Source: Sulfurospirillum oryzae
GTDB taxonomy: Bacteria; Campylobacterota; Campylobacteria; Campylobacterales; Sulfurospirillaceae
Assembly: GCF_025770725.1 (NCBI RefSeq)
Contig: NZ_JANZKZ010000004.1
Location: 124,001-188,000 of the forward strand
DNA length: 64,000 nt
Reading direction: 5' to 3'
Below, piece by piece: positions 1 to 61,600 of this stretch (the first letter of the stretch is position 1; every line of letters starts with the position of its first letter). The position numbers and the translations under genes are program-made. Under the pieces are notes generated by a model that made no database searches, was not told where the DNA came from, and was given only the letters and a program-made list of their open reading frames with translations.

Positions 1-535
1 CGCGGTTTTCCAAAAAATGTGCCACATTATTGAGCGTGGCGTCTACTTGTGTGGTTTCATTTTGCTTGGTATAGAGCCAAAAAAACTTTTCTAACCACAC
101 CTCCAATGCTTTTACATGTAAAGATGAATATCCCTCAATAAGCGCTTTAATAATACGCGTAAATGCTTCAAATAACGCTTTGTGAAAAATGAGAGGTGAT
201 GTTAGTGGTAGAAGTGTGGTAGCTTCTTTAAAATGTCTTTCTTGGATATGCGCGCAAAAGTCAGCGTCAAGGTAAACCATAACATAACTGCGTTTGCTCT
301 CTTTGATAGGGTTGCACGAATGTTGCGTATAGGGTGGAATGATGGCAAGAGCGCCTTGCTCTAAAAAAAACGAACCGTTTGGTGTTTGAAAACAGGTTTG
401 ACCTTCTAGCATAAAGCCGATGGAAAGGGTAGGGTGTGCATGCGTCTCGTAAGCGCGCGTACTTTGCAGCGTTTGACGTATCTGCACAAAAGGTGCTTCC
501 TTGTAACCTGTCGTTGTTGTTTTTGACGTATTCAT
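1..535 (-). CDS. AraC-type transcriptional regulator, N-terminal part (cut by window edge)
   Basis: The minus-strand frame is open from an ATG at 535 to the left edge of the window and reads MNTSKTTTTGYKEAPFVQ onward for 178 codons with no stop. The segment with THAHPTLSIGFMLEGQT, then FFLEQGALAIIPPYTQHSC, is the cupin-like ligand-binding half of AraC-family regulators: a conserved H-P pair, a G-rich beta turn and the IIPP-x-x-x-H signature. The C-terminal DNA-binding domain would lie outside the window. A shorter open frame overlaps it in another register but looks like nothing known. No strong ribosome binding site is visible before the ATG. The gene is divergent from the Sel1-repeat gene. 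The ligand cannot be predicted. Confidence 0.8.
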   Translation of the reverse strand, partial: MNTSKTTTTGYKEAPFVQIRQTLQSTRAYETHAHPTLSIGFMLEGQTCFQTPNGSFFLEQGALAIIPPYTQHSCNPIKESKRSYVMVYLDADFCAHIQERHFKEATTLLPLTSPLIFHKALFEAFTRIIKALIEGYSSLHVKALEVWLEKFFWLYTKQNETTQVDATLNNVAHFLENR

Positions 536-581
536 GTTGGTATTGTAATATAATAATCAAAATGATGGCAAGGAGAAAAAT

Positions 582-1268
582 ATGCATAAACTCTTTTTTA
601 TCGTAACAATCATCGTTGCAACTTCTGCACTCTATGCTTTAGATTTGGTGCGCGAAAGTGAGCTTCAAAATGAGTGCGATCACAACAATGGTGTGGCATG
701 TTTACAATTAGGAACGATGTACCATCTAGGTGATGGTGTCGCTACCAATTTTAGGAAAGCGAAAGAGCTCTACACTCAATCATGCAGTTTAGGCGTTGCT
801 AAAGGCTGTTCAAGTCTTGGATTTATGTATGAAAATGGGCATGCTGGTACAAACTATGCTAAGGCGGCTGAACTGTATGAAAAAGCTTGTGTGCTTGGTG
901 ATGCCTTTGCATGTGAAAGCTTGGCTGTTTTGTATGAAAATGGTAAAGGTGTGAGTGAAGATTTGCAACAAGCAGTCAATTACTATGATCGCGCGTGCAG
1001 TGGTGGGGCAGCAAGCAGTTGCGCTCATCTTGCTTTGCTGTACGAGCAAGATGAAAATTATGTCAGTGCTGCGATTTACCATCAAAATGGGTGTGATGCG
1101 GGCGATGCAAAAGAGTGTTCGCGCATAGGGACAATGTACTACTATGGACAAGGCGTAAGCCAAAGAGAAGAGCAAGCTGCCAAGCTTTTTAAAAAAGCGT
1201 GTGAGTTAGGTGATGAAATAGCGTGCAAAAACTATGAGCTCATTAAGAAGAGCTACTATATCGAATAA
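582..1268 (+). CDS. Sel1-like repeat, cysteine-rich secreted protein (Hcp-type)
   Basis: 228 aa with a signal peptide (residues 1-19, ending in ALYA). The rest is about five Sel1-like repeats of roughly 36 residues (G-x-x-Y-x-x-G-x-G-V, then A-x-x-x-Y-x-x-A-C-x-x-G). Each repeat carries a pair of cysteines spaced as in Helicobacter cysteine-rich proteins (Hcp), where each pair forms a disulfide that staples the helix-turn-helix. This implies a periplasmic or secreted protein-binding scaffold. One repeat (around YEQDENYVSAAIYH) has a shortened turn. AGGAG lies just upstream of the ATG. The next gene follows by 12 bp, so the two may be co-transcribed. No partner can be named; some Hcp proteins bind penicillin-like ligands, but that is not shown here. 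Confidence 0.85.
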   Translation: MHKLFFIVTIIVATSALYALDLVRESELQNECDHNNGVACLQLGTMYHLGDGVATNFRKAKELYTQSCSLGVAKGCSSLGFMYENGHAGTNYAKAAELYEKACVLGDAFACESLAVLYENGKGVSEDLQQAVNYYDRACSGGAASSCAHLALLYEQDENYVSAAIYHQNGCDAGDAKECSRIGTMYYYGQGVSQREEQAAKLFKKACELGDEIACKNYELIKKSYYIE

Positions 1269-1280
1269 GCCAAATATTTT

Positions 1281-8868: not shown

Positions 8869-10055
8869 CCCTCTTAAAAAAGATACTTTTTCATAAATTG
8901 AGCATTTTTATTGCACTCATAGCACTCAGTGCTGGCGGTTACATGGTATGGAAAGAGTACACCAAAGTGCCATTGGAAGCAAAGTATAAATTTCATACAC
9001 TTGAAAATGGCGACATTACACAAAGTGTTGCTGCCAATGGAACACTCAACCCTTTGGTTTTGGTAACCGTAGGTACGCAAGTCTCCGGTAAAGTCATTAA
9101 GCTTTATGTGGATTTTAATGACCGTGTTGAAGAAGGACAGATTTTAGCCGAACTTGATCCGGCTCTTTTAGATGCACAAGTTGCACAAAGTGCCGCCAGT
9201 GTCAAAAGCGCTGAAGCCTCTTTGGAACTTGCTATGGCAAATGAAAAAAGATCACGTGGGCTTTTTACTAAAGAGTACATTTCTAAGCAAGATTTGGACT
9301 CTTCTGTGCAAGCACTCAAATCCGCTCGCGCCGCATTAGACCTTGCGCGTGCCCAGTCTCAAAAAGACCGTACCAATCAAGGCTATACGATTATTCGCTC
9401 CCCCGTCTCTGGTGTCGTAGTGGATCGCCAAATCGATGTAGGACAAACAGTGGCAGCAAGCTTGCAAGCACCTGTACTTTTTAAAATTGCGCAAGATCTT
9501 AGAGAAATGCAGATTGACTCAAACTTCGCAGAAGCAGACATTGGTCGTATCAAAGTGGGGCAAAATGTCAACTTTGCCGTTGATGCCTTTCCCAATAACT
9601 CCTTTAGTGGTGTTGTCAAACAAGTGAGACTCAACGCCACAACAGTTTCAAACGTTGTTACATACGATGTCGTCGTCACCCTTAAAAACCCTGATGAAAT
9701 ACTAGCCCCTGGTATGACAGCGTATGTGAATGTTATTCTTGCCGAGAAGAAAAATATTTTGGTTGTACCTAATGCGGCATTACGCTATAAACCAACTGAA
9801 CTTCAGGCAAAAAATGGGGCACAAAATAATAGTATGAAAGCTAAAAAAGAGAAAAAAGAGACAAATTCGGCGATACTTTACGTGTTTGAAAATGGCGAGC
9901 CAAAACCTGTCAAGGTGACCACTGGTATTACCGATAACCGTTTTACAGAAATTATCTCAGATGGATTGAAAGTAGGCGATAAAATTATTCTTGAAGAGAC
10001 AAAATCTACTGCAAAAGCAACCGCAGCAGGTAGTCCAATGGGAAGACCGTTTTAA
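8865..10055 (+). CDS. macA: Periplasmic adaptor of efflux pump (MacA/HlyD family)
   Basis: 396 aa. A single N-terminal membrane anchor (KLSIFIALIALSAGGYMVW) precedes a biotinyl-lipoyl half-motif (VGTQVSGKVIKLYVDFNDRVEEGQILAELD), a coiled-coil hairpin (about residues 100-165), the second lipoyl half (IIRSPVSGVVVDRQIDVGQTV), and beta-barrel and membrane-proximal domains. The C-terminal domain has a Lys-rich insertion (about residues 318-332, KAKKEKKET). Its position between a TolC-like gene and MacB-like ATPase and permease genes makes it the adaptor of a MacAB-TolC-type exporter. Overlaps of 4 bp and 1 bp with its neighbours show one operon. Confidence 0.92.
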   Translation: MTLLKKILFHKLSIFIALIALSAGGYMVWKEYTKVPLEAKYKFHTLENGDITQSVAANGTLNPLVLVTVGTQVSGKVIKLYVDFNDRVEEGQILAELDPALLDAQVAQSAASVKSAEASLELAMANEKRSRGLFTKEYISKQDLDSSVQALKSARAALDLARAQSQKDRTNQGYTIIRSPVSGVVVDRQIDVGQTVAASLQAPVLFKIAQDLREMQIDSNFAEADIGRIKVGQNVNFAVDAFPNNSFSGVVKQVRLNATTVSNVVTYDVVVTLKNPDEILAPGMTAYVNVILAEKKNILVVPNAALRYKPTELQAKNGAQNNSMKAKKEKKETNSAILYVFENGEPKPVKVTTGITDNRFTEIISDGLKVGDKIILEETKSTAKATAAGSPMGRPF

Positions 10056-10765
10056 TGAACGAAGTTATCAAAATTACGCAGTTAACAAAAAACTACTACA
10101 CCGATGCGGGTGAAGTATGCGTGCTTAAAGGCGTTGATATTACCATTCACAGTGGCGAATTTGTTGCCATTATGGGACCTTCGGGGTCTGGTAAATCAAC
10201 TTTTATGAACATCCTAGGCTGCCTTGATAAAGCAACTTCGGGCGAATACTTTTTAAATCAAACCAAGACAACCTCTTTGAGTAAAAATGATCTTGCAACG
10301 CTTCGCAACCAAGTCATAGGCTTTGTCTTTCAAGGCTTCAACCTCTTGCCACGTAAAAGCCTTATTGATAATGTAGCTCTTCCTTTAGTCTATGCGGGGA
10401 TAAGCTCTGCTGAACGAAAAATAAGAGCCAAAGAGATGCTTAAAAGCGTGGGGTTGGAAGCCTTTGGAACATACCTTCCAACGCATATTTCAGGCGGTCA
10501 GCAACAACGTGTTGCCATTGCACGTGCGCTTGTCAATAACCCAAAACTTATTTTAGCGGATGAGCCTACGGGAAATCTTGATACCAAAACAAGCCAAGAG
10601 ATCATGCAGCTTTTTAGTGAGCTCAATGAAAAAGAGGGCATTACAATCGTATTGGTCACGCATGAGCCAGATATTGCGGCGTATGCGAAACGACTGGTAA
10701 ATTTTGTGGATGGCAAAATACAACACGATGGACCAACGGCACGTATGATGGAGAAGGCACAATGA
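10055..10765 (+). CDS. ABC transporter ATPase, MacB/LolD type
   Basis: 236 aa. Walker A GPSGSGKS, Q-loop FQGFNLLPR, signature HISGGQQQR, Walker B LILADEPTGNLD and H-loop VTHEPD are all present. The sequence resembles the nucleotide-binding half of MacB. In E. coli the ATPase and permease are fused; here they are separate genes with 1-bp and 4-bp overlaps to adaptor and permease. It energises the tripartite pump by a mechanotransmission mechanism known for the MacB family. The substrate (macrolide, peptide, siderophore or other) is not predictable. Confidence 0.94.
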   Translation: MNEVIKITQLTKNYYTDAGEVCVLKGVDITIHSGEFVAIMGPSGSGKSTFMNILGCLDKATSGEYFLNQTKTTSLSKNDLATLRNQVIGFVFQGFNLLPRKSLIDNVALPLVYAGISSAERKIRAKEMLKSVGLEAFGTYLPTHISGGQQQRVAIARALVNNPKLILADEPTGNLDTKTSQEIMQLFSELNEKEGITIVLVTHEPDIAAYAKRLVNFVDGKIQHDGPTARMMEKAQ

Positions 10766-11982
10766 CATTTATAATGCTAGCAGAAGCATGGAGTGCTATG
10801 GGGGCTAATAGGCTTCGTACATTTTTAACGATGCTTGGAATGGTCATTGGCGTGGGTGCGGTTATCTTGATGTCTTCCATTGGTGCTGGAACGCAAGCAA
10901 AAGTCAAAGAGTCCATCGCTTCGATGGGAAGTAATCTTTTTATTGTTCTTGCGGGTTCTATGACTTCTGGAGGGGTTCGTATCGGAAGTGGAGGGGTTCA
11001 GACTTTGACGATTAGCGATGCAACGGCGATGGAAGAGATCGATAGCATTTCAGCAACAGCACCTGTTTCTTCAGGTTCTGCTCAAATGGTTTATCAGTCT
11101 GCAAACTGGAATAGCCAAGTGACAGGCACGACACCATCCTTTTTTCTAATACGTGATTGGGCACTTGAGAGTGGACATCCTTTTATGGATTCGGATGTAA
11201 GAGGTGCGACCAGAGTGGTTGTTTTGGGTAAGACGATTGCCCAAAATCTTTTTGGAGATGAAGAGCCTGTGGGTAAAACCATTCGTATCAAAAACAGTCC
11301 TTATATTGTGGTGGGTGTGCTTGCCAAAAAAGGGCAAAGTTTAGATGGTAGAGATCAAGACGATACCGCGATGGTTCCAATCACCACAGCACAAACCAAA
11401 CTTTTTGGTAGCCAGTTTAAAGGTACGGTACGGTTTATCATGGTGCAAGGGCGCTCTGAAGATACGATGGATAAGGCAGAAAAAGAGATGACACAGCTTC
11501 TTCGCCAACGCCATAAATTGCGTGATAGTGTGGAAGATGACTTTACGATTCGCAACCTCACAGCCCTTGCCAATACAGCAGAAGAGACAACCAAAGCCAT
11601 GTCTTTGATGCTCGCAGCCATTGCGTCTATTTCGCTCTTGGTTGGGGGCATTGGCATTATGAACATCATGCTGGTTTCTGTTACGGAGCGTACACGTGAG
11701 ATTGGTATTCGTATCGCTATTGGTGCGAAACAAAATCATATTTTATTGCAGTTTTTACTCGAAGCGTTGATGATTTCCATCATCGGTTGTTTTATTGGTG
11801 TGTGTGTGGGCGTTGGTGGGGCGTATACGGTGTCGTACTTTTTCCCCATTAGTGTGGTGATTACGCAAAATTCCATCATCATCTCTTTCTTGGTTGCAAC
11901 AGGCGTTGGCGTCTTTTTTGGCTTCTACCCCGCACGAAAAGCGGCAAATTTAGAGCCTATTGAGGCGTTGAGGTATCAGTAA
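10762..11982 (+). CDS. ABC transporter permease, MacB/FtsX family
   Basis: 406 aa. One N-terminal membrane helix (LRTFLTMLGMVIGVGAVILM) leads to a large periplasmic MacB_PCD domain (about residues 45-270) and the C-terminal FtsX domain with three helices, including the conserved GGIGIMNIMLVSVTERTREIGIRIAIGA stretch. The end (FYPARKAANLEPIEALRYQ) is diagnostic for MacB permeases. It pairs with the preceding ATPase (ATGA overlap) and is the last gene of the efflux operon. Confidence 0.95.
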   Translation: MTFIMLAEAWSAMGANRLRTFLTMLGMVIGVGAVILMSSIGAGTQAKVKESIASMGSNLFIVLAGSMTSGGVRIGSGGVQTLTISDATAMEEIDSISATAPVSSGSAQMVYQSANWNSQVTGTTPSFFLIRDWALESGHPFMDSDVRGATRVVVLGKTIAQNLFGDEEPVGKTIRIKNSPYIVVGVLAKKGQSLDGRDQDDTAMVPITTAQTKLFGSQFKGTVRFIMVQGRSEDTMDKAEKEMTQLLRQRHKLRDSVEDDFTIRNLTALANTAEETTKAMSLMLAAIASISLLVGGIGIMNIMLVSVTERTREIGIRIAIGAKQNHILLQFLLEALMISIIGCFIGVCVGVGGAYTVSYFFPISVVITQNSIIISFLVATGVGVFFGFYPARKAANLEPIEALRYQ

Positions 11983-12020
11983 TTGCGCTATAATTCTTCA
12001 AAATTAACATAGGAATGTCA

Positions 12021-12767
12021 ATGAAATTACTTTTAATTGGTGCTGGCAATATGGGTGGAGCAATGCTTCAAGGGTTACATGTAAAAGATATTACAGTGGT
12101 TGAAGCGTATCCACCGCGCGTTAAAGAGCTCCAAGAACTCTATCCTACGATTAAAATTGTGCAAGAAATTCCTTCATTAGAAGGCTACATTGTCATTCTT
12201 GCGGTTAAACCTCAGTCCTTTGGAACTTTGACGACTAAAGGCATTGCGGAGGGCGTTATTTCAATTATGGCTGGGGTTAGTTTAGAAAAACTAAAAGCAG
12301 GCATTATGGCAAAGCATTACATTCGCTCTATGCCAAATATGGCAGCTCTTGTACGAAAATCGGCAACCTCTTTGTGCGGTGACGTTGCTTTAAAAGAGGA
12401 CGCGATGGATGTTTTAAGCTCAATTGGCCGCTGTTTTTGGCTAGAGAGTGAAAAAGAGCTTGACATTGCCACTGGACTTTCAGGTTCAGCTCCAGCGTGG
12501 ATTGCCTTGGTCGCAGAAGCTTTGAGTGATGGCGCGGTCAATCTTGGAATGAAAAGAGAGATTACCTATCAATACATTGCAACGCTCTTTGAGGGAGTGG
12601 GTGAAGTGCTAAAAACAGAGCATCCTGCACTTTTAAAAGATAAAGTCATGTCACCTGCTGGAACAACTGCCGCAGGTTATGCAAAACTTGAAGAGGGCAA
12701 GGTAAGAGATAGTTTCATCAAAGCGATGGAAGCATCGTATGAGAGAGCAAAGGGTTTTTCAAAGTAG
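12021..12767 (+). CDS. proC: Pyrroline-5-carboxylate reductase
   Basis: 248 aa from ATG 12021, preferred over ATG 12015, which would touch the AGGA at 12011-12014. Makes L-proline from 1-pyrroline-5-carboxylate with NAD(P)H. The Rossmann motif GAGNMG is at the N-terminus, AVKPQ follows strand 4, RSMPNMAA marks the family, and the C-terminal dimer domain carries the ProC signature VMSPAGTTAAGYAKLEEGKVR. It is monocistronic, 38 bp after the efflux permease, and followed by a strong bidirectional terminator. Confidence 0.95.
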   Translation: MKLLLIGAGNMGGAMLQGLHVKDITVVEAYPPRVKELQELYPTIKIVQEIPSLEGYIVILAVKPQSFGTLTTKGIAEGVISIMAGVSLEKLKAGIMAKHYIRSMPNMAALVRKSATSLCGDVALKEDAMDVLSSIGRCFWLESEKELDIATGLSGSAPAWIALVAEALSDGAVNLGMKREITYQYIATLFEGVGEVLKTEHPALLKDKVMSPAGTTAAGYAKLEEGKVRDSFIKAMEASYERAKGFSK

Positions 12768-12773
12768 AAGAAG

Positions 12774-12805
12774 CTTAAGGGCTTGTCATAAGACAAGTCC
12801 TTAAG
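12774..12805. terminator. Bidirectional terminator between proC and dacA
   Basis: CTTAAGGGCTTGTC (12774-12787), loop ATAA, then GACAAGTCCTTAAG (12792-12805): a 14-bp stem with one G-T wobble, lying between convergent genes. The stop codon of dacA is inside the right arm. Confidence 0.85.
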
Positions 12806-13721
12806 CGATTTTATGTGCTTTTTTCTTGGTTGAGGCTGTTTTCTTTGTATTTTTAGAAGGGACAGTTGCTTTCTTAGCACTTCTTGTTTCTGTAATATCC
12901 GGTAAAACATCTTCAAAAATCGTCTTCACGTCATTCCATCGGTGTTCGGAGTTAAGCATAACGACTAAAATATCTTTATCATCTTTTTTAGCTCTAGCAA
13001 TCAAACATGGACCTGCTTTTTGTGTGTATCCTGTTTTGATGCCTACAGCGTACTTATAATTGTTAAGAAGTTTGTTATGGGTATAAGCGGCATAGCCTCT
13101 TTTGGTATTAAGTGCTTGAAAATCATGGCGTTTCAGCTTTGCCATATCGTTAAACGCGTTGTTCTTGATAGCATATTCACTAAGGGTTAAAAGATCAAGT
13201 GCGGTAGAGTAATGATGGCCAAAATTACTACTGTCAAAACCACAAGGATTCGTAAAGTTAGTGTTTTTCATGCCAATTGCTTTTGCTTTGCGATTCATCA
13301 TTCCTACAAATTTATCGACATCTCCATCGCCTAAATAAACGCCTATACTCATGGCTGCATCATTGGCGGACATAACCATGGCAGCTTTTACAAGATCTCG
13401 AAGGTAAAATTTTTCACCTACTCTAAGCCCTGCTTTTGTCGGTTCGACTTGAATCATCTCTCGTGTGATGGTGACGACATCGTTCATTCTGCCACTTTCA
13501 ATAGCAAGGACAGCTGTCATAATTTTGGTTAAACTAGCGGGTTGATTGATTTTTTGTTCATCTTTTGCAAAAATAAGTTGTTTACTATTGAGATCTTTAG
13601 CAATGATAGAGTCTGTGTTACGTTTGATACGGTCAGCTGTCTCTTTGTCAAGATAGGCTGCGCTAAGGGAACTGGTTACGATACATACGCCGCAGAAAAG
13701 CGATAAAAGTTTTTGGGTCAT
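12801..13721 (-). CDS. dacA: D-alanyl-D-alanine carboxypeptidase (PBP5-like, peptidase S11)
   Basis: 306 aa with a signal peptide. Serine peptidase motifs are in order: SLTK (nucleophile Ser and Lys) in QPASLTKIMTAVLA, SAND (SxN box) and KTG in VGIKTGYTQKAGPC. It trims the terminal D-Ala of peptidoglycan pentapeptides in the periplasm. Compared with E. coli PBP5 it lacks a clear C-terminal beta domain and amphipathic anchor. It ends instead in a Lys/Thr/Ser-rich tail of about 30 residues (KKATVPSKNTKKTASTKKK), which could bind acidic wall polymers or membrane (inference). Confidence 0.92.
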   Translation of the reverse strand: MTQKLLSLFCGVCIVTSSLSAAYLDKETADRIKRNTDSIIAKDLNSKQLIFAKDEQKINQPASLTKIMTAVLAIESGRMNDVVTITREMIQVEPTKAGLRVGEKFYLRDLVKAAMVMSANDAAMSIGVYLGDGDVDKFVGMMNRKAKAIGMKNTNFTNPCGFDSSNFGHHYSTALDLLTLSEYAIKNNAFNDMAKLKRHDFQALNTKRGYAAYTHNKLLNNYKYAVGIKTGYTQKAGPCLIARAKKDDKDILVVMLNSEHRWNDVKTIFEDVLPDITETRSAKKATVPSKNTKKTASTKKKAHKIA

Positions 13722-13834
13722 GCTGCTCTTTTTTAGGAATTGATTTTTTCCATTTTAGTGAAAGTTTCTTAAAAATTTCCTTTTAAAATGGCTAAAATAG
13801 CCACTTTGCTTCAAATGATGAAAAATTAAACATA

Positions 13835-13873
13835 AAGCGTTATAACGCTTAAGGTAATAACGTTATAATGCTT
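13835..13873. promoter_or_regulatory. Palindrome and direct repeats upstream of modE, with candidate -10
   Basis: AAGCGTTATAACGCTT (13835-13850) is a perfect 16-bp palindrome. Its half CGTTATAACGCTT (13838-13850) recurs as CGTTATAATGCTT (13861-13873), 23 bp downstream, and the start CGTTATA recurs in the ModE-type box at 13897. TATAAT at 13864-13869 is a plausible -10. These look like regulator sites on the mod promoter, possibly extra ModE half-sites. Confidence 0.55.
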
Positions 13874-13894
13874 CCAATATTTTAATGCAGATCT

Positions 13895-13923
13895 ATCGTT
13901 ATATACTTAAACTACATAAGGAA
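13895..13923 (+). promoter_or_regulatory. ModE-type operator before modE
   Basis: ATCGTTATATA, 7 bp, then TACATAAGGA: a close match to the known ModE operator (ATCGnTATATA-n6/7-TAYATAACGAT of E. coli). It ends about 6 bp before the modE start and overlaps the ribosome binding region. This suggests autorepression of the whole mod operon when molybdate or tungstate is plentiful. Confidence 0.7.
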
Positions 13924-13928
13924 GAGAG

Positions 13929-14708
13929 ATGGAAGGGATTGCCTCTGGTGTGATCAGCTTTGACAAGCCAGTTCTTTTAGAAAAAAGGATTAAATTGCTA
14001 GAAGCTATTGCAGAAACTGGCTCTATTAGCAGTGCTGCCAAAAGAGTAGGGCTTAGTTATAAAGCAGCATGGGAAGCTGTTGATACGATGAATAATCTTT
14101 CTCATAATCCTTTAGTTGTTCGTGTAACAGGCGGTAGTGGAGGTGGTGGAACGACGCTAACACCCTTGGGGGAAGAAGTGGTTGCTAATTATTCCGTTTT
14201 AAAAAAAGAGTATGAGAGGTTTTTAAATCGGCTTTCTACTATGGGCAACTTTGAAATGAACAGTTTAAAACACATACAAAGGATTGCAATGCAGATAAGC
14301 GCACGTAACCAGCTGATGGGAAAAATCGGCGAGATCAAACAAGCAAAGGTCAATGCAGAGGTAAGCGTTGTGCTCAAAAGTGGTGTTATCCTTGTCTCGA
14401 CCATTACCAACAGTGCGGTGGAAGAGTTAGGATTAGAAATTGGTGATGAAGTGGTTGGCATCATCAAAGCATCTTCTGTTTTGATTTCCAATGTGATTGA
14501 CATCGCAACCAGCGCTCGCAATAAGCTTGTGGGTGTTGTCACCGACATTAAGTTAGGCGAAGTGAATGCGACGGTAAGTGTGGACATTGGTCAAAACGAT
14601 GTGATCATTGCAACCATAACAAGCGAGTCGGTTAGAAGTTTAGGGCTAACGGTTGGAACACGCGTGTGTGCCATTATCAAATCCAGCAGTATATTAATCG
14701 GAAAATAA
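13929..14708 (+). CDS. modE: Molybdate-responsive regulator ModE
   Basis: 259 aa, full-length ModE. It has an N-terminal winged helix-turn-helix (KLLEAIAETGSISSAAKRVGLSYKAAWEAVDTM, about residues 23-56, with VRVTGGSGGGGTTLTPLG as wing) followed by two Mop/TOBE domains. Each begins SARN-x-L, first SARNQLMGKIGEIKQAKVNAEVSV and then SARNKLVGVVTDIKLGEVNATVSV, and together they bind oxyanion at the dimer interface. As a DNA-binding repressor/activator it should control its own operon through the box at 13895. It is the first gene of the Mod locus, 11 bp before modA. Confidence 0.95.
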   Translation: MEGIASGVISFDKPVLLEKRIKLLEAIAETGSISSAAKRVGLSYKAAWEAVDTMNNLSHNPLVVRVTGGSGGGGTTLTPLGEEVVANYSVLKKEYERFLNRLSTMGNFEMNSLKHIQRIAMQISARNQLMGKIGEIKQAKVNAEVSVVLKSGVILVSTITNSAVEELGLEIGDEVVGIIKASSVLISNVIDIATSARNKLVGVVTDIKLGEVNATVSVDIGQNDVIIATITSESVRSLGLTVGTRVCAIIKSSSILIGK

Positions 14709-14719
14709 AAGGAGCTTCC

Positions 14720-15469
14720 ATGTTAAAAGTATTGATTGCCAGCGTCGTATTATCAGTTTCTCTTCTTGCAGGAGAGATTAGTGTTGCGGTTGCCGCCAAT
14801 TTGAGTGACGTCATCGAGGTTTTTAAAGCAGAGTTTGCCAAAACAAACCCAAATACTAAAGTCAACACTGTTTTGGGTGCGAGTGGTAAATTTACAACAC
14901 AAATTAAAAGTGGTGCACCGTTTGATCTTTTTTTAAGTGCCGACATGGGTTTTCCTGAGAACCTTTACGCTGAGAAAATCGCGGTGACAAAACCGGTTGT
15001 TTATGCCAGTGGTGCTTTAGCGATGGTGAGTATGAAAGGATTTGATTTAAGTAAAGGTATTGCCGTATTGGATGATCCTAAAGTAGAGAAAATCGCAATT
15101 GCAAATCCAAAAACAGCACCTTATGGAGCGGCAAGTATTGAAGCGTTTAAAAATGCAAAATTGTTTGAAAAAGTTGAACCAAAACTTGTTCAAGGCGATA
15201 GCATTTCTCAGGCATTACAATTTTCCATTACAGCCGCAGATGTAGGCTTTGTTAATGCTTCCGCTTTTTACAGCGATAAAATGAAAGAGTACAAAAAAGG
15301 GGTTCAATGGGTGGATGTTGATCCAAAACTTTATACACCTATTGCTCAAGGAATTGTTCTTTTAAAACAAGCGGAAAACAATGCAGAAGCCAAAGCGTTT
15401 TATGACTTTGTTTTAAGTGCTAAAGCCAAATCGATCTTTAAGAGCTACGGATACTTGGTCAATGAATAG
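14720..15469 (+). CDS. modA: Molybdate ABC transporter substrate-binding protein
   Basis: 249 aa from ATG 14720 (GGAG at 14711-14714). An upstream in-frame ATG at 14666 lies inside modE and is unlikely. A signal peptide (MLKVLIASVVLSVSLLAGE) leads to the ModA fold: SVAVAANLSDVIEVF, NTVLGASGKFTTQIKSGAPFDLFLSAD with the Ser residues that bind the oxyanion, and NPKTAPYGAASIEAF. It captures MoO4(2-), or WO4(2-), in the periplasm and delivers it to ModB. Overlaps the next gene by 8 bp. Confidence 0.95.
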   Translation: MLKVLIASVVLSVSLLAGEISVAVAANLSDVIEVFKAEFAKTNPNTKVNTVLGASGKFTTQIKSGAPFDLFLSADMGFPENLYAEKIAVTKPVVYASGALAMVSMKGFDLSKGIAVLDDPKVEKIAIANPKTAPYGAASIEAFKNAKLFEKVEPKLVQGDSISQALQFSITAADVGFVNASAFYSDKMKEYKKGVQWVDVDPKLYTPIAQGIVLLKQAENNAEAKAFYDFVLSAKAKSIFKSYGYLVNE

Positions 15470-15863
15470 ACTAAGGGCTGTTGTTACAGAAATAGAAGGA
15501 GAGCAGAACCTGCACATCATTACTTTTGACTGTGCAGGGAGTTCACTTAAAATGATGGGACTTGATCTGCCCAAAGGTTTACATCTCAATAGTCATGTCA
15601 TCCTTGGTATCAAGCCTTCCCATGTGGCGATTGCTAAACATCTTAGTGGAGAGCTGAGTTATTCTAACCAGCTTCAAGCAACCATTGCAAGCATTGAAAA
15701 TGGAAAATTACTGAGCAATATTCTTTTACATGTAAAAGAGAGTGACGTTCAAAGTTTCATCACGCTCTCTTCATCAAAACGAATGAATTTACAAGTAGGT
15801 GAGCAAGTAACCCTTCTTATAAAAGCAAGTGAACTTTTTGTTTTGGAGGTGCTGGATGCTTGA
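15462..15863 (+). CDS. TOBE-domain molybdenum-binding-type protein
   Basis: 133 aa from ATG 15462, inside the end of modA; the frame is open farther upstream but the region is modA coding sequence. Two TOBE-like halves are visible: [32 protein letters not shown]...[11 protein letters not shown], then [21 protein letters not shown]...[20 protein letters not shown] small protein of this type sits between modA and modB in Campylobacter (annotated there as molybdenum-pterin-binding). It may be a cytoplasmic oxyanion buffer or a TOBE unit that regulates ModC. The gene carries a TTTACATGTAAA site at 15725-15736. Confidence 0.8.
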
Positions 15864-16554
15864 AAAGCTAATGGGACTTGAATTTACACCTTTTTTAATT
15901 TCGTTTAAACTTGCGTCCATTACCACTGCCATTTTATTTTTTATTTCGCTTTTTATAGCGTGGAATTTATCGCAAAGCAAGTCACGACTCAAGCCTATTT
16001 TTGAAGCCATTACCGCCCTTCCGATCGTTTTGCCCCCTTCAGTTTTAGGTTTTTACATTCTCTATGCGCTTTCATTTCACTCTCCCATTGGACGCTTTTT
16101 TCAAGATGTGTTTGGGGTCAAATTGGTTTTTAACTTCACAGGTTTAGTGGTAGCAAGCTGTTTTTATTCGCTTCCTTTTATGGTTCAGCCCTTGCAGAGT
16201 GGCTTTGAAGCATTACCAAAAAATATGCTTGAAGCGTCGTATATTGCTGGTAAAAGTAAACTCAAAACACTTTTTTGTGTGGCACTTCCTAACATTAAAC
16301 CTGCTTTGATGACGGCGGTAATTATCACTTTTGCTCATACCGTAGGAGAATTTGGTGTGGTTTTGATGGTGGGTGGAAGTATTCCTGGCGAGACAAAGGT
16401 CGCCTCTGTGGCTATTTATGAAATGGTGGAGATTATGGATTATACCAGCGCTCATATTTACAGTGCCATTATGGTTAGTATCAGCTTTTGCGTGCTTTTA
16501 GGTGTTTATATTTTTAATCGCAAACAGAGCCATCATGTAGGAGGCATTGCATGA
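15856..16554 (+). CDS. modB: Molybdate ABC transporter permease
   Basis: 232 aa from ATG 15856, chosen because GGAGG lies at 15845-15849. It has five or six membrane helices and the binding-protein-dependent transport EAA loop in [31 protein letters not shown]. The helices [18 protein letters not shown] and [19 protein letters not shown] are hallmark ModB segments. It forms the inner-membrane channel with ModC. Overlaps the TOBE gene by 8 bp and modC by 4 bp. Confidence 0.94.
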
Positions 16555-17408
16555 TCGAAATTGATGTTCAAAAAGAGCTTCTAGGCTCTCTTGGCAAAAT
16601 GGACTTACATGTAAAGCTTTCGATTGAAAAAGAGAGTTTTGTAGCACTTTCAGGTCAAAGTGGCAGTGGAAAAACAACACTTCTTCGCATTTTAGCAGGA
16701 CTAGAGCGTGCACAAGGCGAGATAAAAGTCGATGATGAGGTCTGGTTAGATGGTTCTCACTCCTTGCCACCCCAACAACGAGGCATTGGATTTGTGTTTC
16801 AAGACTATGCGCTTTTCCCCAATATGAGTGTTTTAGAAAATTTGCTTTTTGTGCGTAAAGACAAAGAACTTGCTCGTCAACTTTTGGATTTGACTGAGCT
16901 AGTAGAGTTGGCACACAGAAAACCTGCGACACTCTCAGGTGGGCAAAAACAGCGTGTGAGTTTGTGTCGTGCGATGATGAACAGACCTAAACTTCTTTTA
17001 ATGGATGAACCTCTCTCCGCACTCGATCCCTTGATGCGAAATAAGCTCCAACATGAGATTTTAACGCTTCACAAAGCGTTTGGGACAACGACCATTATGG
17101 TGAGCCATGATCCGAGTGAAATTTATCGTTTAAGTTCGCGTGTGGTGGTGCTTTCACAAGGCAAAGTGATGCAAGATGGCGATGCTAAAAGTGTGCTTCT
17201 TCGTACGCAAGGAAGTCAAAAGTTTTCGTTTGAGGGAGAGCTTTTAGATATTGTAAAAGTGGATGTGATTTACATCGCGATCATTTCTATTGGTCAGCAG
17301 ATCGTTGAAGTGGTGTTGGATGCGAGTGAAGCTAGAGATTTACATGTAGGCGATGTGGTGAGCATTGGAACCAAAGCGTTTGCTCCTATCATCCAAAAGC
17401 TCAGGTAA
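16551..17408 (+). CDS. modC: Molybdate ABC transporter ATPase
   Basis: 285 aa. Walker [11 protein letters not shown]-loop [14 protein letters not shown], signature LSGGQKQR, Walker [13 protein letters not shown] and H-loop VSHDPSE are in order. The C-terminal about 60 residues resemble a single regulatory TOBE/Mop-like domain ([41 protein letters not shown]). It powers ModB. It is the only ATPase of the locus and sits between two binding-protein/permease sets, so it may serve both (see findings). Confidence 0.94.
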
Positions 17409-17417
17409 GGACAAAAA

Positions 17418-18131
17418 ATGAAAAAAATAGTCTGCTTCATGGCAATTGCTCTTTTGTGCAACGCTTTTGCGGATGATCTTAAAATTGCCGTTGGTGCTGG
17501 GTACAAAAAACCAGTCGTGGAAGTTTTAAAAGTTTATGAAGAGATGACGCATAGCAAGATAGATGCGATGTATGGCAATATGGCGCAAATCTTTGCCCAA
17601 GCTAAACAGACAGAAATTGCGCTCATCATTGCCGATAAAAAGTTTCTAGAGAAGCAAAAAGAGCTTAGTTTTACCAACTATCAAAAAATAGGGGATGGCA
17701 TTGCTGTTATTGCATACACTAAGGGTGTTAGGTTTGATGGAATTGAAGATATCACAAAAGAGAGCATTAAAACCATTGCGATGCCAGAAGCTAAAAAAGC
17801 GATTTACGGTGATGCGGGTATGGAGTTTTTGCACAATGCAAAGCTTTATGATGCGCTAAAAGAAAAACTCTTAATCGTAGCAACTGTGCCTCAGGTAAGC
17901 TCTTACGTGAGTACGCATGAGGTGGATGTGGGCATTATGAACCTTACCGCAGCGCTTGATAGCATCGATAAGATCGGTGGATACATCAAAATCCCTCAAG
18001 AGTACTACACCAAAATTGAGATCGTCTCAGGAAGTTTAAAAGCATGTGAAGCTGATAAGGCGTGTCAAAACTTTATCGCTTTTTTACAAACACCCAAAGC
18101 TAAGGAAATTTTTACGAAATATGGGCTTTGA
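17418..18131 (+). CDS. Second ModA-like oxyanion-binding protein
   Basis: 237 aa with a signal peptide (about residues 1-18, MKKIVCFMAIALLCNAFA). Related to ModA but divergent: KIAVGAGYKKPVVEVLKVYEEMTHSKIDAMYGNMAQIFAQAKQ, then AMPEAKKAIYGDAGMEFLHNA and VSSYVSTHEVDVGIMNL. The usual Ser-containing A-x-N-L start is replaced by GAGYKKP, so the anion site differs; tungstate or another oxyanion is possible (inference). A C-terminal CEADKAC pair could form a disulfide. It starts 9 bp after modC and overlaps the following permease gene. Confidence 0.82.
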   Translation: MKKIVCFMAIALLCNAFADDLKIAVGAGYKKPVVEVLKVYEEMTHSKIDAMYGNMAQIFAQAKQTEIALIIADKKFLEKQKELSFTNYQKIGDGIAVIAYTKGVRFDGIEDITKESIKTIAMPEAKKAIYGDAGMEFLHNAKLYDALKEKLLIVATVPQVSSYVSTHEVDVGIMNLTAALDSIDKIGGYIKIPQEYYTKIEIVSGSLKACEADKACQNFIAFLQTPKAKEIFTKYGL

Positions 18132-18798
18132 GATGGTGCAGATTTGGCACCCCTTGGTGTTAAGCCTTAAAACATTGAGTGTTGTTGCTTTGCTTTTAGT
18201 GGTTATAGGAATTCCTTTAGCCTATTTTCTTTCAAAAGAGAATCTCAAGTACAAATGGTTTATGGAAACTTTAGTAACGCTTCCTTTGGTCTTTCCGCCC
18301 ATTGCTATTGGCTTTTTACTGTTGCTTCTTTTAGGAAAGCATGGTTGGCTTGGAAGTTATCTTAATCCTCTTGGTATACGCTTTATTTTTGACTTTAATG
18401 GGCTTGTTTTAGCGGGTTTTGTTGCCGCTTTGCCGCTCATGGTCAAACCCTTACAATCTGCGATTGAACTTTTTCCAAAAACCATCAAAGAAGCAGCGTA
18501 TATCAGCGGTAAAAGTGGATTGCATACCCTTGTTTTTATTATTTTGCCTTCCATCAAAAAAAGTGTGATGGCGGCACTTCTTATCGCTTCTGCGAGAGCA
18601 CTTGGCGAGGTCGGCATTACGTTGATGCTAGGTGGCAATATCGTAGGGAAAACAGACACCATCTCTTTAGCTATTTACAATGCTGTTTTCGATGGCGATT
18701 ATCCTTTGGCACTGCTTTTATGTACGATTTTAATTGTTATCTCTTTGGCTGTTTTTACAGCACTTCATTTTTTTCAAAAAAATGAAAATTTACTTTAG
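18121..18798 (+). CDS. Second ModB-like ABC permease
   Basis: 225 aa from ATG 18121 (AAGGAA at 18102-18107). ATG 18133 is an alternative, and the frame runs farther upstream inside the preceding gene. It has multiple membrane helices. LPLVFPPIAIGFLLLLLLG and the EAA-loop region EAAYISGKSGLHTLVFIILPSIKKSVMAALLIASARALGEVG are those of molybdate/tungstate permeases. It has no ATPase gene of its own; modC is the nearest candidate. Overlap with the binding-protein gene shows the two act together. Confidence 0.88.
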   Translation: MGFEMVQIWHPLVLSLKTLSVVALLLVVIGIPLAYFLSKENLKYKWFMETLVTLPLVFPPIAIGFLLLLLLGKHGWLGSYLNPLGIRFIFDFNGLVLAGFVAALPLMVKPLQSAIELFPKTIKEAAYISGKSGLHTLVFIILPSIKKSVMAALLIASARALGEVGITLMLGGNIVGKTDTISLAIYNAVFDGDYPLALLLCTILIVISLAVFTALHFFQKNENLL

Positions 18799-18840
18799 CT
18801 TATTTTTGTTACAATATTTTTAAATAATAAAGGCTTTCGC

Positions 18841-19662
18841 ATGATGGACATGATACGTGAAGATATAGGGCTTATCGATATGACCACTGTTGGGTTGGAG
18901 ATTGGTCATTTGCAAGGTAAAATTACCTTTGCACCCAAGCGAGCACTTGTTTTATGCGGTGCAGAACTGGTTGAAGAGATTTGCCTAAAGATGAACCTTC
19001 AAGTCAAGCGTTTTAAAAGTAGTGGCGATAAACTGGAAGCAGATGAGCTCATTTTAGAAGCCTATGGGGATGCGGAGCATCTGCATTATGTCTGGAAAGT
19101 ATGCCAAAATATCTTAGAGTACTCCTGTGGGATTGCCACGAAAACACATGAAATGCTCACTCTTGCAAGAGCCGAAAATCCTCATGTTGAACTGCTGACA
19201 ACCCGTAAAATTTTCCCGCGCACCAAAGAGCTCGCTTTAAAAGCAATTTATGCAGGCGGAGGCGCACATCACCGTTTAGGGCTGTATGATTCGGTTCTCA
19301 TTTTTAAACAGCACCGTGTTTTTTTTGAAAATGATGCCGCATTTGAAGCACAATTTTTAAAAATGAAGCGTAAATTTTTGGAGAAGAAAATCATCGTTGA
19401 AGTTGAAAATTGTGAAGAAGCTCTCTATTTTGCAAACCTTGGTGCAGATATTTTGCAATGTGAAAAAATGACTCCAGAACAGTTGCAAAACTGCATTTAT
19501 GAAGTGCGTAAAAGTTCTCCAGCAGTGCTCTTTTCTGCAACCGGTGGTGTTGGCGAAAAAAATATTGCAGAGTATGCCAAAGCAGGAGCTGATTTTATTG
19601 TAACGTCCTCTCCTTATCATGCGAAGCCAGCAGAGATTCGTGTTGTGATTGAGCGAGTGTAA
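18841..19662 (+). CDS. modD: ModD, nicotinate-nucleotide-pyrophosphorylase-like protein
   Basis: 273 aa. The fold is that of quinolinate phosphoribosyltransferase: REDIGLIDMTTVGLEIG at the N-terminus, EYSCGIATKTHEML, TTRKIFPRTKELALKAIYAGGGAHHRLGLYD with the substrate-binding Arg/Lys/His set, and FSATGGVGEKNIAEYAKAGADFIVTSSPYHAKPA. The variant that clusters with mod genes is ModD, known genetically in Rhodobacter but with no settled reaction. The candidate -10 TACAAT at 18809-18814 suggests it may also have its own promoter. The GGGAHHR loop sets it apart from a housekeeping nadC. Confidence 0.85.
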   Translation: MMDMIREDIGLIDMTTVGLEIGHLQGKITFAPKRALVLCGAELVEEICLKMNLQVKRFKSSGDKLEADELILEAYGDAEHLHYVWKVCQNILEYSCGIATKTHEMLTLARAENPHVELLTTRKIFPRTKELALKAIYAGGGAHHRLGLYDSVLIFKQHRVFFENDAAFEAQFLKMKRKFLEKKIIVEVENCEEALYFANLGADILQCEKMTPEQLQNCIYEVRKSSPAVLFSATGGVGEKNIAEYAKAGADFIVTSSPYHAKPAEIRVVIERV

Positions 19663-20810: not shown

Positions 20811-20890
20811 GTGTTATTCCTTTCCTAAATAGATAGGAAAAGTATAGTCGTACGTCGCTTATGGCTCTTAGATTATGTAAAAGTAATGTT

Positions 20891-21361: not shown

Positions 21362-21368
21362 AAGTGTC

Positions 21369-24587: not shown

Positions 24588-24654
24588 TTTGAAAGCTTTT
24601 TTTTATCTTTTTTGTGTTAAATTCCGTGATCACTTAAGCATAGAGGTTGAAAAA

Positions 24655-25785: not shown

Positions 25786-25803
25786 GGACTTAAAGGAGAC
25801 GAT

Positions 25804-27021: not shown

Positions 27022-27025
27022 TATT

Positions 27026-27059
27026 TTTCAAGGAAGGATTTTTTAATCCTTCCTTGAAA
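27026..27059. terminator. Terminator after dapD, bidirectional
   Basis: TTTCAAGGAAGGATT (27026-27040), loop TTTT, then the exact complement (27045-27059): a perfect 15-bp stem between convergent genes. The last codons of the small gene at 27043-27261 lie inside it. Confidence 0.88.
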
Positions 27060-27261: not shown

Positions 27262-27326
27262 AAAGAACTCCTTGTTTGGATATTTTGGTTCATTGTATCA
27301 CAGCAAAAAAAGCTATTATGTGTAAA

Positions 27327-28544: not shown

Positions 28545-28571
28545 TCCGTTTCGTTTCCTATTTTTTTGCGA

Positions 28572-29357: not shown

Positions 29358-29416
29358 AAGGACTCCTTTTCGGTGTATAATATTCTTGGTTTTATTTTAT
29401 TTTTTAAAGGAATAAC

Positions 29417-58595: not shown

Positions 58596-58600
58596 AGTAG

Positions 58601-61600
58601 TTAGTCTGCCTTTTTGTGTGAAATTTCTTGAAGAAGCGGTTCTATAAGGCTTATGGCGTAGTCAAACTCAAATGCTTTTATCTGCTCAAAAGCTTCCAAT
58701 AATCGCCCATCCGTCGCTTGTATCAGGATCATAGCATCATCAAGTGCGGTCGCATCAGAACTTTTGAGTTTTATGATAAGGTTTTGTAGCGTTTCAAGGT
58801 CTATGTTTGAGGCTGTGGTAAAAGGCTCGGGTTGTGCCGAAAGCGCTTGAATAATAGCACTTAAAGAGCGAATTTTTATGTCAATAGCTTCAAGCAATGG
58901 AGCATCATTGGCAATAGGATGAACCAAAAGTTCGGCTTGCCCCGCTAATGAAGAGAGCTCTTCCATTCCAAGGGTTCCCGCAATTCCTTTTAAGGTATGA
59001 CACAGTCGTTTTGCCCCTTGTAAATCATTTTCAACGACAAGGTTTCGATACTTTTGTATAAAATGTACTTGATCTTTCGCAAAGGCTTTGAGTAATTGGC
59101 GATAGAGTTTTACATTGCCTCCCAGTCGTGCAATGGCATTGAGACTATTAATGCCCTCAAGCGCAAAAGTCTCAGAGGAAGGTGCGATCACAGATACTGT
59201 TTTATGGCAAAAATGTGCAATCTCATGAAGGAGTTTTTGTGCATCCACAGGCTTAGGAATATACCCATCCATTCCAGCAGCATAACATTTCTCTTCATCG
59301 CCTTTCATAACATTAGCCGTCATTGCAACGATTGGAAGTGTTAAATTGAGCTCTTCTCTTATTTTGTGGGTCGCTTCAAAACCATCTAAAATAGGCATTT
59401 GGCAATCCATCAAAATCAGATCAGGCAAAGGGTTTTGTTTAAGCCAATCAAGCGCTTCTTGCCCATTATTGGTAACCAAAACATGAATGCCAGCTTTGTT
59501 TAGAATTTCACAGGCTACTTCTTGATTGCTTTCATTATCTTCTACGAGCAGAACGGTAATGCCTTCAAGTGATTGAATCATTTGAGTGTCATGCGCATGA
59601 TGCAAAGGATCGACCAAGCGTGTGTGCCCATACAGACCAATCAATGTATCAAAAAGCGTTGAGGCGGTGATAGGTTTAACCAATATGGCATAAGGTTGGT
59701 TGAGCCCAATTTTGGCAGTCAACTCCTCTTTATCATAAGCGGTCACCATCATAATCGAGGCAATTTGATGTTCAAAACGTTGCTCAATCAGTTGGAAGAG
59801 AGTGATGCCATCCATCCCTTCCATTTTCCAGTCAATAATGGCAACGTCGGCTTGAAACCCCTTGTTTAAGAGTTCTAGTGCGTCTTTAGCGCTTTTACAT
59901 GTAACGCATCCAACCCCAAAATGAGAGAGGATTTCGGAGAAAATTTCGAGTGCTGTTTCGTTGTCATCGACAACTAAAACTTTGAGGGCACGTGTTAACA
60001 ATGTCTTGACGGGTGCTGTATAGGTGGTGTCAATATGCAAAGGAATTTCAAACCAAAAGGTACTGCCTTCGCCATACGTACTTTTACATTGGAGGTCGCC
60101 TCCCATCATCATGACTAACCCTTGTGCAATGGTAAGACCTAAGCCCGTACCTCCATAATTGCGGGTGGTTGACATATCGGCTTGTGAGAAAGCATTAAAA
60201 AGGTACGCTTGCTGTTCTTCTGTAATACCAATGCCCGTATCTTTGATTTCAAAGCGAATTTTTTGAATGCCGTTATGCTCATCTAGCGCTTTAAGACGTA
60301 TGAGCACTTCCCCTTTTGTAGTGAATTTGACGGCATTGGCTAGAAGATTGAGTAGAACTTGCTTGAGACGCAATGGATCGCCATTATAACGATGGGCTGT
60401 CACATTGCCAATATCAATCAGTAGTTCCAACCCTTTTTGTTGTGCGCGCATACTGATAAGATCGGTTGCCGAAACAATGAGCTCTTCGAGTTGAAAGGGA
60501 ATGGATTCGAGTTGAATTTTATTGGCTTCAATTTTCGAAAAATCCAAAATATCGTTGATGATGTCTAAAAGATGGTGCGCTGCCTCAGCGACTTTGGTAA
60601 GGTAATGGCGCTCTTTTTCGGGCAATTCCTTACGTAAAATAAGTTCGGTCATTCCGATAATCGTGTTCATAGGTGTGCGAATTTCATGGCTCATATTGGC
60701 AAGAAATTGGCTTTTGGCTTGGTGTGCATAGGCTGTTTTTGTCATGGCAATTTTGAGCTCTTCCGCCGTTTTTTGTAGTTGCTTATTGGTAAGTATGACT
60801 TCAGCTTCTGCGAGTTTTCGTTTTTTTATTTCTCGTTTTAGTGTCATAAGCCACAAGCTAAACCCAAGCACAATTAAAAACCCAATCCCAACAATCTTCA
60901 TGATTAAGGTGTAGTCTATCTTTTCTTGGATTTCAACTTTGATATATTTTTTATATAACGCGTCTTTTTCTTCTTCACTGATTGTATCGATGCCTTGATT
61001 GATTTTTGACAACAGTGAGGCATCTTTGAGTGCCATAACAAGTTCCAATTGATCTTTTAAGATACCGACTATCTTGATGTTTGAAAGCCCACTATTTTGC
61101 AGGGCATAGCCTATAATAGGCGCCATCTCCAAAAAAAGATCTGCCTTTTTATGCTCAATAGCAATCAGCCCCTCTTGCGTTGTTTGCACCACATAGGTTC
61201 TAATACTTGGATAGTAGCGTTGTAAATAGTGCTGTACGGATGAGTCTGCACCTACGGCAACGAGCAGGTCTTGTTGTTTCACTTCAGCAAGGTCGGTGAT
61301 GAGATTATTTGATTTAAGTCCTGCTAATACAAGGTTAAATTTTAAAAAGGGTCTGGTGGTTATCTCATGAGGGGAAACATCAAGAGAAATCAAGCCGGGA
61401 ATGATTTCAAAGGCACCAGCATCGTAATCTTGGATGACGGTACTCCAATTTTCACGAAAGCTATAGGTAAACTCAAGCCCCGTTTTGTTTTCTAAGAGAT
61501 GCAGATAATCTGCGATCATGCCACTGATATGCTGGTTTTGTATAAACACAAGAGGTTCCCATGAACTTTGGCTGTATAGGAGTGTTCGTTTGGGGGAAGA

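Follow-up and report, generated by a model that had tools for sequence, protein, structure and literature searches.

A highly iterated palindrome with a CATG core in Sulfurospirillum and its imperfect association with a candidate CATG methyltransferase

HIP1 is said to have been described in 1995, and the origin of highly iterated palindromes (HIPs) has reportedly been open since. The present account concerns TTACATGTAA, a 10-bp palindrome that recurs in a 64,000-nucleotide stretch of Sulfurospirillum oryzae DNA (contig NZ_JANZKZ010000004.1, positions 124,001 to 188,000; hereafter the window), and M325, a 325-residue D12-class N6-adenine methyltransferase (PF02086, E 3.8e-41) encoded outside the window at G000:C3:196220-197194, where G000 is the window's genome of 2,632,398 bases. 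As described in PMC4390886, HIP1 (GCGATCGC) and the alternate HIPs have in common with TTACATGTAA an abundance far above chance, a dispersed distribution and occasional flank extensions; in both systems the core fits a resident methyltransferase (a candidate writer in the present case), alternate palindromes occur in relatives, copies with one mismatch (one-offs) are biased toward the outer bases, and some site-rich genomes lack the methylase. The likeness to HIP1 suggested by the original prediction is upheld in most features: the palindrome is sharp and dispersed, its core fits a resident orphan methyltransferase, and relatives swap flanks. In contrast to HIP1, TTACATGTAA lies in another phylum, is an AT-rich 10-mer, has a CATG core instead of GATC or CGATCG and is predicted to be methylated at adenine by an enzyme of the HpyI/NlaIII type. 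Cyanobacteria have MutL (PMC4390886), whereas the genomes considered here do not, and the intergenic excess and hairpin pairs found here are not described for HIP1 in the accessible portion of PMC4390886.

The uptake sequences of Neisseria and Haemophilus (DNA uptake sequence, DUS; uptake signal sequence, USS) resemble TTACATGTAA in copy number, density, coding share (for H. influenzae), non-coding excess and the occurrence of some inverted pairs (PMC1939737); according to the same source, the H. influenzae sequence has 1471 copies, 65% of them in open reading frames (ORFs), and about 10% of uptake sequences occur as inverted repeats. Unlike DUS and USS, TTACATGTAA is palindromic and varies by lineage around a methylase core. 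Campylobacter jejuni, a member of the same phylum as Sulfurospirillum, offers another comparison. It takes up only DNA that bears the methylation of CtsM (PMC8468864), an adenine methylase whose palindromic mark is recognised in uptake; M325 and CtsM are likened here by description. The CtsM target is printed as RATTY in PMC8468864 and RAATTY is listed for cj0208 in PMC4687069; in our reading the two are the same target. That target differs from the present one, and RAATTY is common (28170 copies in a C. coli genome), whereas TTACATGTAA is a rare 10-mer. A further relative is the IceA1-HpyIM system, in which IceA1, a CATG-recognising nuclease, adjoins the CATG methylase hpyIM (PMC13340068). 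Homologues of M325 likewise adjoin IceA homologues in 21 of 98 loci, and CATG is avoided in many such genomes. In contrast, M325 of G000 has no IceA homologue within the surrounding 17 kb, CATG does not rank with the palindromes most strongly avoided in that genome (observed/expected 0.76, against 0.15 for GGCC), and M325 is placed beside the HpyI/NlaIII enzymes by family context and not by direct comparison. Among the open-access papers listed in literature searches there was no account of TTACATGTAA or of HIPs in Campylobacterota, which is no proof of novelty, as most subscription journals lie outside that set; a search within PMC4687349 yielded only a remark on GATC in S. deleyianum.

TTACATGTAA is probably the form that a highly iterated palindrome of the Campylobacterota takes in Sulfurospirillum, with a CATG methyltransferase as writer and a second component that reads the flanks. 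All 29 exact sites claimed for the window are present at their predicted first bases (Table 1), compared with a mean of 0.12 and a maximum of 1 in 100 dinucleotide shuffles. The two proposed near-matches, TTACATGTAG and CTACATGTAA, are also there. The window contains 7 one-mismatch forms, and forms with one or two mismatches number 45, which is the chance level (74 with the exact ones, against 46.2 expected); copies are therefore perfect or absent. A 14-mer extended form does exist, and calling it frequent was generous, since it is exact at 6 of the 29 sites. ORF calls place 21 of the 29 copies in coding DNA and 8 between genes, close to the 22 or so coding copies predicted, and the codon phases (12/8/1) bear out the use of only two frames, with a lone third-phase case at the trpB end (51600). 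The excess also survives a codon-aware expectation: across 2000 shuffles of synonymous codons within the genes of the window, the mean was 1.1 sites and the maximum 5, against 20 observed (the trpB site, which holds a stop codon, was excluded). Restriction to the window, which would have spoken against the prediction, is not seen, as the whole genome holds 1056 copies against 3 of the reversed control.

TTACATGTAA exceeds the control in all 24 genomes of the genus (49-1496 copies against 0-10). Across the 398 genomes of the order that were counted, the 44 members of Sulfurospirillum's family hold 6-1496 copies, another family (f17) includes scattered rich genomes (367, 354, 340, 194, 96, 77, 48, 31, then at most 19), and the remaining families stay at the control level of 0-11. 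For the 8-mer TACATGTA, counted in 80 chosen genomes, the background is 1-61; a clear excess is found in 30 of 31 genomes of family f1 (92-1724; the exception is G059, with 28) and in 9 of 41 genomes of f17 (99-848). Other lineages have other forms. G059 carries 685 copies of ATCATGAT, where each of the 79 genomes compared with it has 10-136; the form in G010 is TKACATGTMA, that in G312 mostly CTACATGTAG (12 sites), and that in G266 and G110 TACATGTA. Two further loci come from the Campylobacterales: L168 has 25 copies of ATCATGAT within 21 kb, most of them in the form TATCATGATA and often CTATCATGATAG, and L162 has 7 copies of TTCATGAA within 20 kb. CATG is the core of every form found, and the flanks vary by lineage. 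No clear alternate palindrome was seen in 80 kb of the site-poor G009. Viral stretches with the 14-mer (at least 120) contained neither M325 nor IceA and did not match the Sulfurospirillum DNA compared, and are uninformative.

Conservation of sites across related genomes, proposed as a check by the original prediction, was assessed by aligning the window with the syntenic regions of nine congeners, in counts whose site pairs are not independent. Between G000 and its three nearest site-rich relatives, 25 of 29 sites aligned without gaps are exact (86%; 56 unaligned and 2 gapped sites dropped), compared with 442 of 2205 nearby 10-mers (20%). Between G000, G001, G004 and G011 on one side and G007, G006, G008 and G002 on the other, the figures are 121 of 140 (86%; 134 unaligned and 6 gapped dropped) and 1219 of 10525 (11.6%). 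Taken singly, seven site-rich congeners can be aligned at 10-15 sites and are exact at 7-12 of them (p 3e-4 to 9e-11); the single-genome tests for G009 and G017 are not significant. Single positions are kept across 77-82% identity, and identity does not increase as a site is approached from a distance of 300 bp to one of 4 bp. Site-rich congeners thus keep their sites at fixed places. For G009 (49 sites) and G017 (238), which are equally close relatives and site-poor, the same places are exact in 11 of 125 comparisons, against a control of 12.8% (15 gapped and 122 unaligned dropped).

The positions at which one-offs deviate, counted from the outermost base inward and small in number, separate two kinds of genome. 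The counts are 3,4,3,1,1 in G009 (1 exact copy), 2,4,3,2,1 in G017 (4 exact) and 0,3,1,1,0 in G022 (1 exact); in all three, one-offs outnumber exact copies and are not bound to the edge. The outermost base accounts for 11 of 14 one-offs in G013, 15 of 22 in G143, 14 of 18 in G110, 12 of 15 in G266, 16 of 19 in G121 and 7 of 9 in G378. G021 is intermediate (6,4,5,1,0), G010 deviates at the second base, and G000 (5,5,5,3,2) has no clear outer-base bias. We read the first three genomes as having decaying sites and the six that follow as having a maintained 8-mer core with a looser outer base. These sequence comparisons show that a strong force holds sites at fixed places in most lineages examined and that sites decay in some lineages without M325.

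Three classes of methylase were searched for a writer, and M325 is the sole candidate left. Cytosine methylases (PF00145) were rejected, as none occurs in the site-rich G005, G011, G015, G018, G020, G121, G143, G305 or G378, and so were beta-class methylases (PF01555), which gave no match in 21 of the 44 family genomes, including G001-G007 and G011. Among relatives of M325 in named genomes (the best 80 of at least 540, from Campylobacterota, Bacteroidota and others), six neighbouring genes were scanned: three belong to ICEA (PF05315, E 2.7e-112 to 8.7e-121), and the other three are without a match. Three of the 21 IceA homologues are distant (27-28% identity). The median observed/expected ratio of CATG is 0.18 in IceA-bearing M325 loci and 0.69 in those without IceA (98 loci, each at least 8 kb, some genomes included twice). 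CATG is the most avoided of the 16 palindromic 4-mers in 18 of 51 M325 loci outside Campylobacterota, followed by CTAG in 9; these loci are at least 9 kb long, have phyla assigned from record titles and come from M325-bearing genomes only, with no M325-free controls. Because of the IceA neighbours and the avoidance of CATG, the M325 family is very probably CATG-specific. Searches of NCBIfam and the PDB gave no informative match.

M325 was initially set aside, as some HIP-poor genomes carry it and some rich ones do not. Its candidacy was restored because IceA-paired copies and flank-switched palindromes explain part of the misfits; others stand. M325 status was taken from identity or DNA, except in five f1 genomes (G289, G329, G346, G357, G384) that have only PF02086 matches of like length, and IceA was sought within about 4 kb of M325 in f17, G201, G061 and G318, and over longer distances in G056, G334 and G201. 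Where M325 has no IceA beside it, a CATG-core palindrome is present in 26 of 31 genomes (21 of 26 without the five PF02086-only carriers), comprising 20 of 20 in f1, 6 of 9 in f17 and none of 2 elsewhere (G201, G061). Where it is paired with IceA, the palindrome is present in none of three (G071, G027 and the second copy of G061, a genome counted in both groups). Genomes without full-length M325 show a TACATGTA excess in 3 of 31 cases in f17 (G143, G305, G362; homologues of 32-35% identity not classed as M325) and none in 5 of 5 cases outside f1 and f17 (including G033, with broken M325 pieces).

Within f17, orphan M325 is carried by 6 of the 9 site-rich genomes and by 3 of the 32 that are site-poor (Fisher p 0.0012; all copies, p 0.0029), with the cut for site-rich set at 90 copies after the counts were known. 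Within the genus, the median is 1169 sites with M325 and 238 without (p 0.0024, kinship ignored; 19 genomes at least 90% complete, with 5 less complete ones dropped and G002, G005, G006 and G016 counted as carriers by PF02086 search alone). In G022 the neighbour genes of M325 are present, M325 itself is absent and the sites have decayed. The association between M325 and the palindrome is strong but imperfect, and M325 is likely the writer in most lineages, with others possible. Several M325 loci have features of their own. A 77-residue lysine-rich ORF stands where related genomes have M325 (L020 5582-5815, in G022). An intact paralogue of M325 is encoded on pSDCE1, a plasmid of S. diekertiae (L277 1692-2732), and the related plasmid pSDIE1 has M325 fragments only, annotated as separate genes (L278 20143-20689). 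In a Sulfurimonas genome, the region immediately upstream of the M325 that is linked to tsaD holds a restriction-modification pair of the AccI type (PF09545, Eco57I methylase; L175 7272-9979).

The layout of the sites was followed in two genomes. A 144-kb sample of G000 contains 62 exact TTACATGTAA copies, next to which the preference for particular bases is largely gone beyond the second position (T 73%, then C or T), and 609 CATGs, about a tenth of which lie in a full site. The G004 sample comprises 400 kb in 20 stretches taken evenly from a single-contig genome, with 199 sites. Their distribution over the chromosome is even (chi-square p 0.93; variance/mean 0.58, below Poisson), so that the suggested check for an origin-to-terminus trend revealed no bias; the GC skew of G004 changes sign near 1.4 Mb. 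Genes contain 130 of the 199 sites (65%; phases 86/43/1), and this share, with the even spread, makes a classic operator unlikely, as had been argued. Intergenic DNA makes up 8.2% of the sample and holds the other 69 sites (35%), an excess of 5.9-fold. Close pairs (at most 45 bp apart) number 15 in G004 against 4.4 expected; 11 of the 15 are intergenic, 6 of these between convergent genes, and the pairs fold into hairpins whose stems extend inward by 1.7 bases on average, against 1.0 in controls. Convergent gaps contain 9.7 sites per kb in G004 and 1.7 per kb in the G000 sample. Contig 1 of G000 has no TTACATGTAA from 12.2 to 42.0 kb, and the sampled part of this interval is low-GC and carries what we take to be integrase-like and defence-like genes. 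Positions 10001-30000 of that contig (L125) are low-GC with one site in 20 kb, and their genes, judged by eye, are presumably integrase-like, Fic-like, zeta-toxin-like, HNH-like and ATPase genes.

In the reading preferred here, the orphan M325 would act as writer, and it quite likely methylates the CATG core. A second factor needing the flanking bases would act as reader: CATG is about ten times commoner than the full site and a methylase alone cannot explain the flanks, which argues for a factor that prefers the full site. The force that keeps the sites would be methylation-gated DNA uptake or recombination, with perfect sites taken up and recombined preferentially and so staying perfect. The CtsM mark of C. 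jejuni offers a precedent, and copy number, the 65% coding share, the intergenic excess and the inverted pairs match what is printed for H. influenzae uptake sequences. That a marked site leads to uptake is, however, a tentative step, less well supported than the one that concerns the writer. The complete scheme, in which self DNA is marked by an orphan methylase acting on CATG, a receptor reads the methylated 10-bp frame, biased uptake and recombination build and mend about 1000 palindromes, and HIPs including HIP1 arise likewise, is possible but rather doubtful.

The genus, which contains Sulfurospirillum diekertiae, belongs to Campylobacterota, and the palindrome described here thus lies outside the cyanobacteria. 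Several observations weigh against the preferred reading. The label HIP requires 11 changes on the tree, so a single origin does not follow. M325 without IceA is accompanied by no clear iterated palindrome in G056, G328, G334, G201 and G061 (5 of 31). All 11 of the f1 genomes counted that have no full-length M325 still hold 109-1201 copies of TACATGTA. G013, G143, G110 and G266 keep TACATGTA sharp without full-length M325 (G266 has a fragment), and another methylase, or none, is possible there; G305 has 368 copies without M325. G143 keeps its sites even though dxr directly adjoins tsaD (as we name these genes) at the place where M325 usually lies in f17. Six IceA-paired loci barely avoid CATG (L167, L185, L189, L196, L216 and L245; 0.59-0.87). 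Close pairs are in clear excess in G004 alone; the excess is weak in the G000, other rich and G013 samples (2, 3 and 2 pairs, where 1.6, 2.2 and 0.5 are expected; 7 against 4.3 together) and amounts to 4 against 2.0 for 8-mer pairs in G121, G143, G110 and G378. Plasmids typed as non-mobilizable carry TACATGTA at near-chromosomal density (11 in 22.6 kb and 7 in 27.8 kb of sampled stretches), which uptake does not obviously predict. ComEC, the only competence gene looked for, is present in 51 of 54 genomes, site-poor ones included; its loss was rejected as the cause of decay, as G009 and G017 have it.

An uptake sequence of the Neisseria/Haemophilus type, in which TTACATGTAA itself is recognised by a receptor of the pilus or membrane, methylation is irrelevant and the sites are driven and kept by biased uptake with recombination, would account for the copy number and density (1056 in 2.6 Mb), the even spread and the division between coding and intergenic DNA in G004, the mostly intergenic inverted hairpin pairs of that genome and the scarcity of sites in a low-GC stretch with what we take to be integrase-like and defence-like genes. 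It is nevertheless unlikely: TTACATGTAA is a perfect palindrome, unlike the uptake sequences known so far, what stays the same from lineage to lineage is the methylase target CATG while the flanks vary, and the sites are associated with an orphan M325. Moreover, N. gonorrhoeae has only 35% of its uptake sequences in ORFs (PMC1939737), and Sulfurospirillum competence is without documentation in the literature searched. A site that serves chromosome organisation or repair, to which a protein inside the cell binds and which purifying selection keeps copy by copy, would agree with the conservation of single positions across 77-82% identity, the variance below Poisson along G004 (0.58) and the presence of sites on plasmids. 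This explanation, improbable to a similar degree, has to reconcile some 1000 selected sites with their near-complete loss in viable relatives (49 in G009, 168 in G022), and close pairs and a strong intergenic excess are unexpected of spacing signals; no candidate protein came to light, none having been sought.

Methyl-directed mismatch repair, which in the HIP1 model converts the sequence around methylated cores into the palindrome, is favoured by deviations that lie mostly at the outermost bases in several genomes here, as in HIP1 (PMC4390886). MutL (PF01119) is, however, found in none of 54 genomes, while 11 of 14 control genomes are positive; its absence excludes a MutL-dependent model here and leaves this kind of origin very improbable. 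Among the functions listed by the original prediction, repair through MutL is thereby removed, and methylation gains indirect support. That the palindrome is a by-product of codon usage or base composition, a mobile repeat, or a set of terminators or operators is scarcely credible and is refuted as a full account, although some copies form terminator-like hairpins and convergent gaps are site-dense in G004 (not in the G000 sample): synonymous shuffles fall far short of the observed count, the shared flank ends after about two bases, and most sampled sites are coding.

The individual sites of the window are listed in Table 1. Apart from the palindrome, CATATG is absent from the window (0 against 17.5 expected) and nearly so in 80 kb elsewhere in the genome (3 against 20.7), which suggests a restriction system of the NdeI type, or the remains of one; strong avoidance is also seen for GGCC and CCGG. 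A locus from a Helicobacteraceae metagenome-assembled genome (TD114a_bin11; L179) contains the HIP1 sequence GCGATCGC 10 times in 19.6 kb, where a Markov model expects 6.4.

Table 1. Palindrome sites and one-off forms in the window. Gene names ending in -like are what we take the ORFs to be; fractions give exact copies among site-rich congeners or aligned genomes.
Element	Position	Context	State in congeners
TTACATGTAA	112..121	intergenic	
TTACATGTAA	1338..1347	in P-type ATPase-like gene	
TTACATGTAA	4855..4864	intergenic	
TTACATGTAA	6100..6109	in mechanosensitive-channel-like gene	
TTACATGTAA	7051..7060	coding	
TTACATGTAA	7416..7425	intergenic	
TTACATGTAA	12075..12084	in proC-like gene	
TTACATGTAA	15726..15735	coding	
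TTACATGTAA	16605..16614	in ABC-ATPase-like gene	
TTACATGTAA	19755..19764	coding; exact 14-mer	
TTACATGTAA	20059..20068	coding	
TTACATGTAA	23959..23968	in ispDF-like gene	exact in G002 (sole genome aligned)
TTACATGTAA	24281..24290	in ispDF-like gene	exact in G002 (sole genome aligned)
TTACATGTAA	28079..28088	in GGDEF-like gene	exact in G002 (sole genome aligned)
TTACATGTAA	28943..28952	in ThiF/MoeB-like gene	exact in G002 (sole genome aligned)
TTACATGTAA	29266..29275	in ThiF/MoeB-like gene	exact in G002 (sole genome aligned)
TTACATGTAA	32911..32920	coding	exact 3/3 aligned (G004, G011, G002)
TTACATGTAA	34463..34472	intergenic	exact 2/2 aligned (G011, G002)
TTACATGTAA	39744..39753	intergenic; exact 14-mer	exact 6/6 aligned site-rich congeners and G017
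TTACATGTAA	43330..43339	in radical-SAM-like gene	exact 5/7 site-rich congeners; not G009/G017
TTACATGTAA	43549..43558	same radical-SAM-like gene; exact 14-mer	exact 7/7 site-rich congeners; not G009/G017
TTACATGTAA	43860..43869	same radical-SAM-like gene	exact 3/7 site-rich congeners; not G009/G017
TTACATGTAA	45925..45934	between two genes	exact 4/7; not G009/G017
TTACATGTAA	49324..49333	in glnD-like gene	exact 7/7; not G009/G017
TTACATGTAA	50379..50388	between glnD-like and trpB-like genes; exact 14-mer	exact 7/7 and G017; not G009
TTACATGTAA	51600..51609	trpB-like 3' end including stop codon	exact 3/6 aligned and G017; not G009
TTACATGTAA	53829..53838	in mqnE-like gene; exact 14-mer	exact 7/7; one mismatch in G009 and G017
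TTACATGTAA	57553..57562	intergenic, convergent genes; exact 14-mer	exact 4/4 aligned; not G017
TTACATGTAA	59895..59904	in histidine-kinase-like gene	exact 4/4 aligned; not G017
One-off form TTACATGTAG	17340..17349	8-mer core intact	
One-off form CTACATGTAA	63690..63699	8-mer core intact	

On this account TTACATGTAA would be a second HIP system, with another phylum, another core, another predicted type of methylase and switches of flank. MutL-dependent repair is ruled out in this system. Closely related site-poor species have lost TTACATGTAA, and such sister pairs allow direct tests of writer, reader and uptake. If methylation-gated uptake proved true, HIPs and uptake sequences would be unified, and HIP1 would derive from methyl-dependent transformation rather than from mismatch repair.

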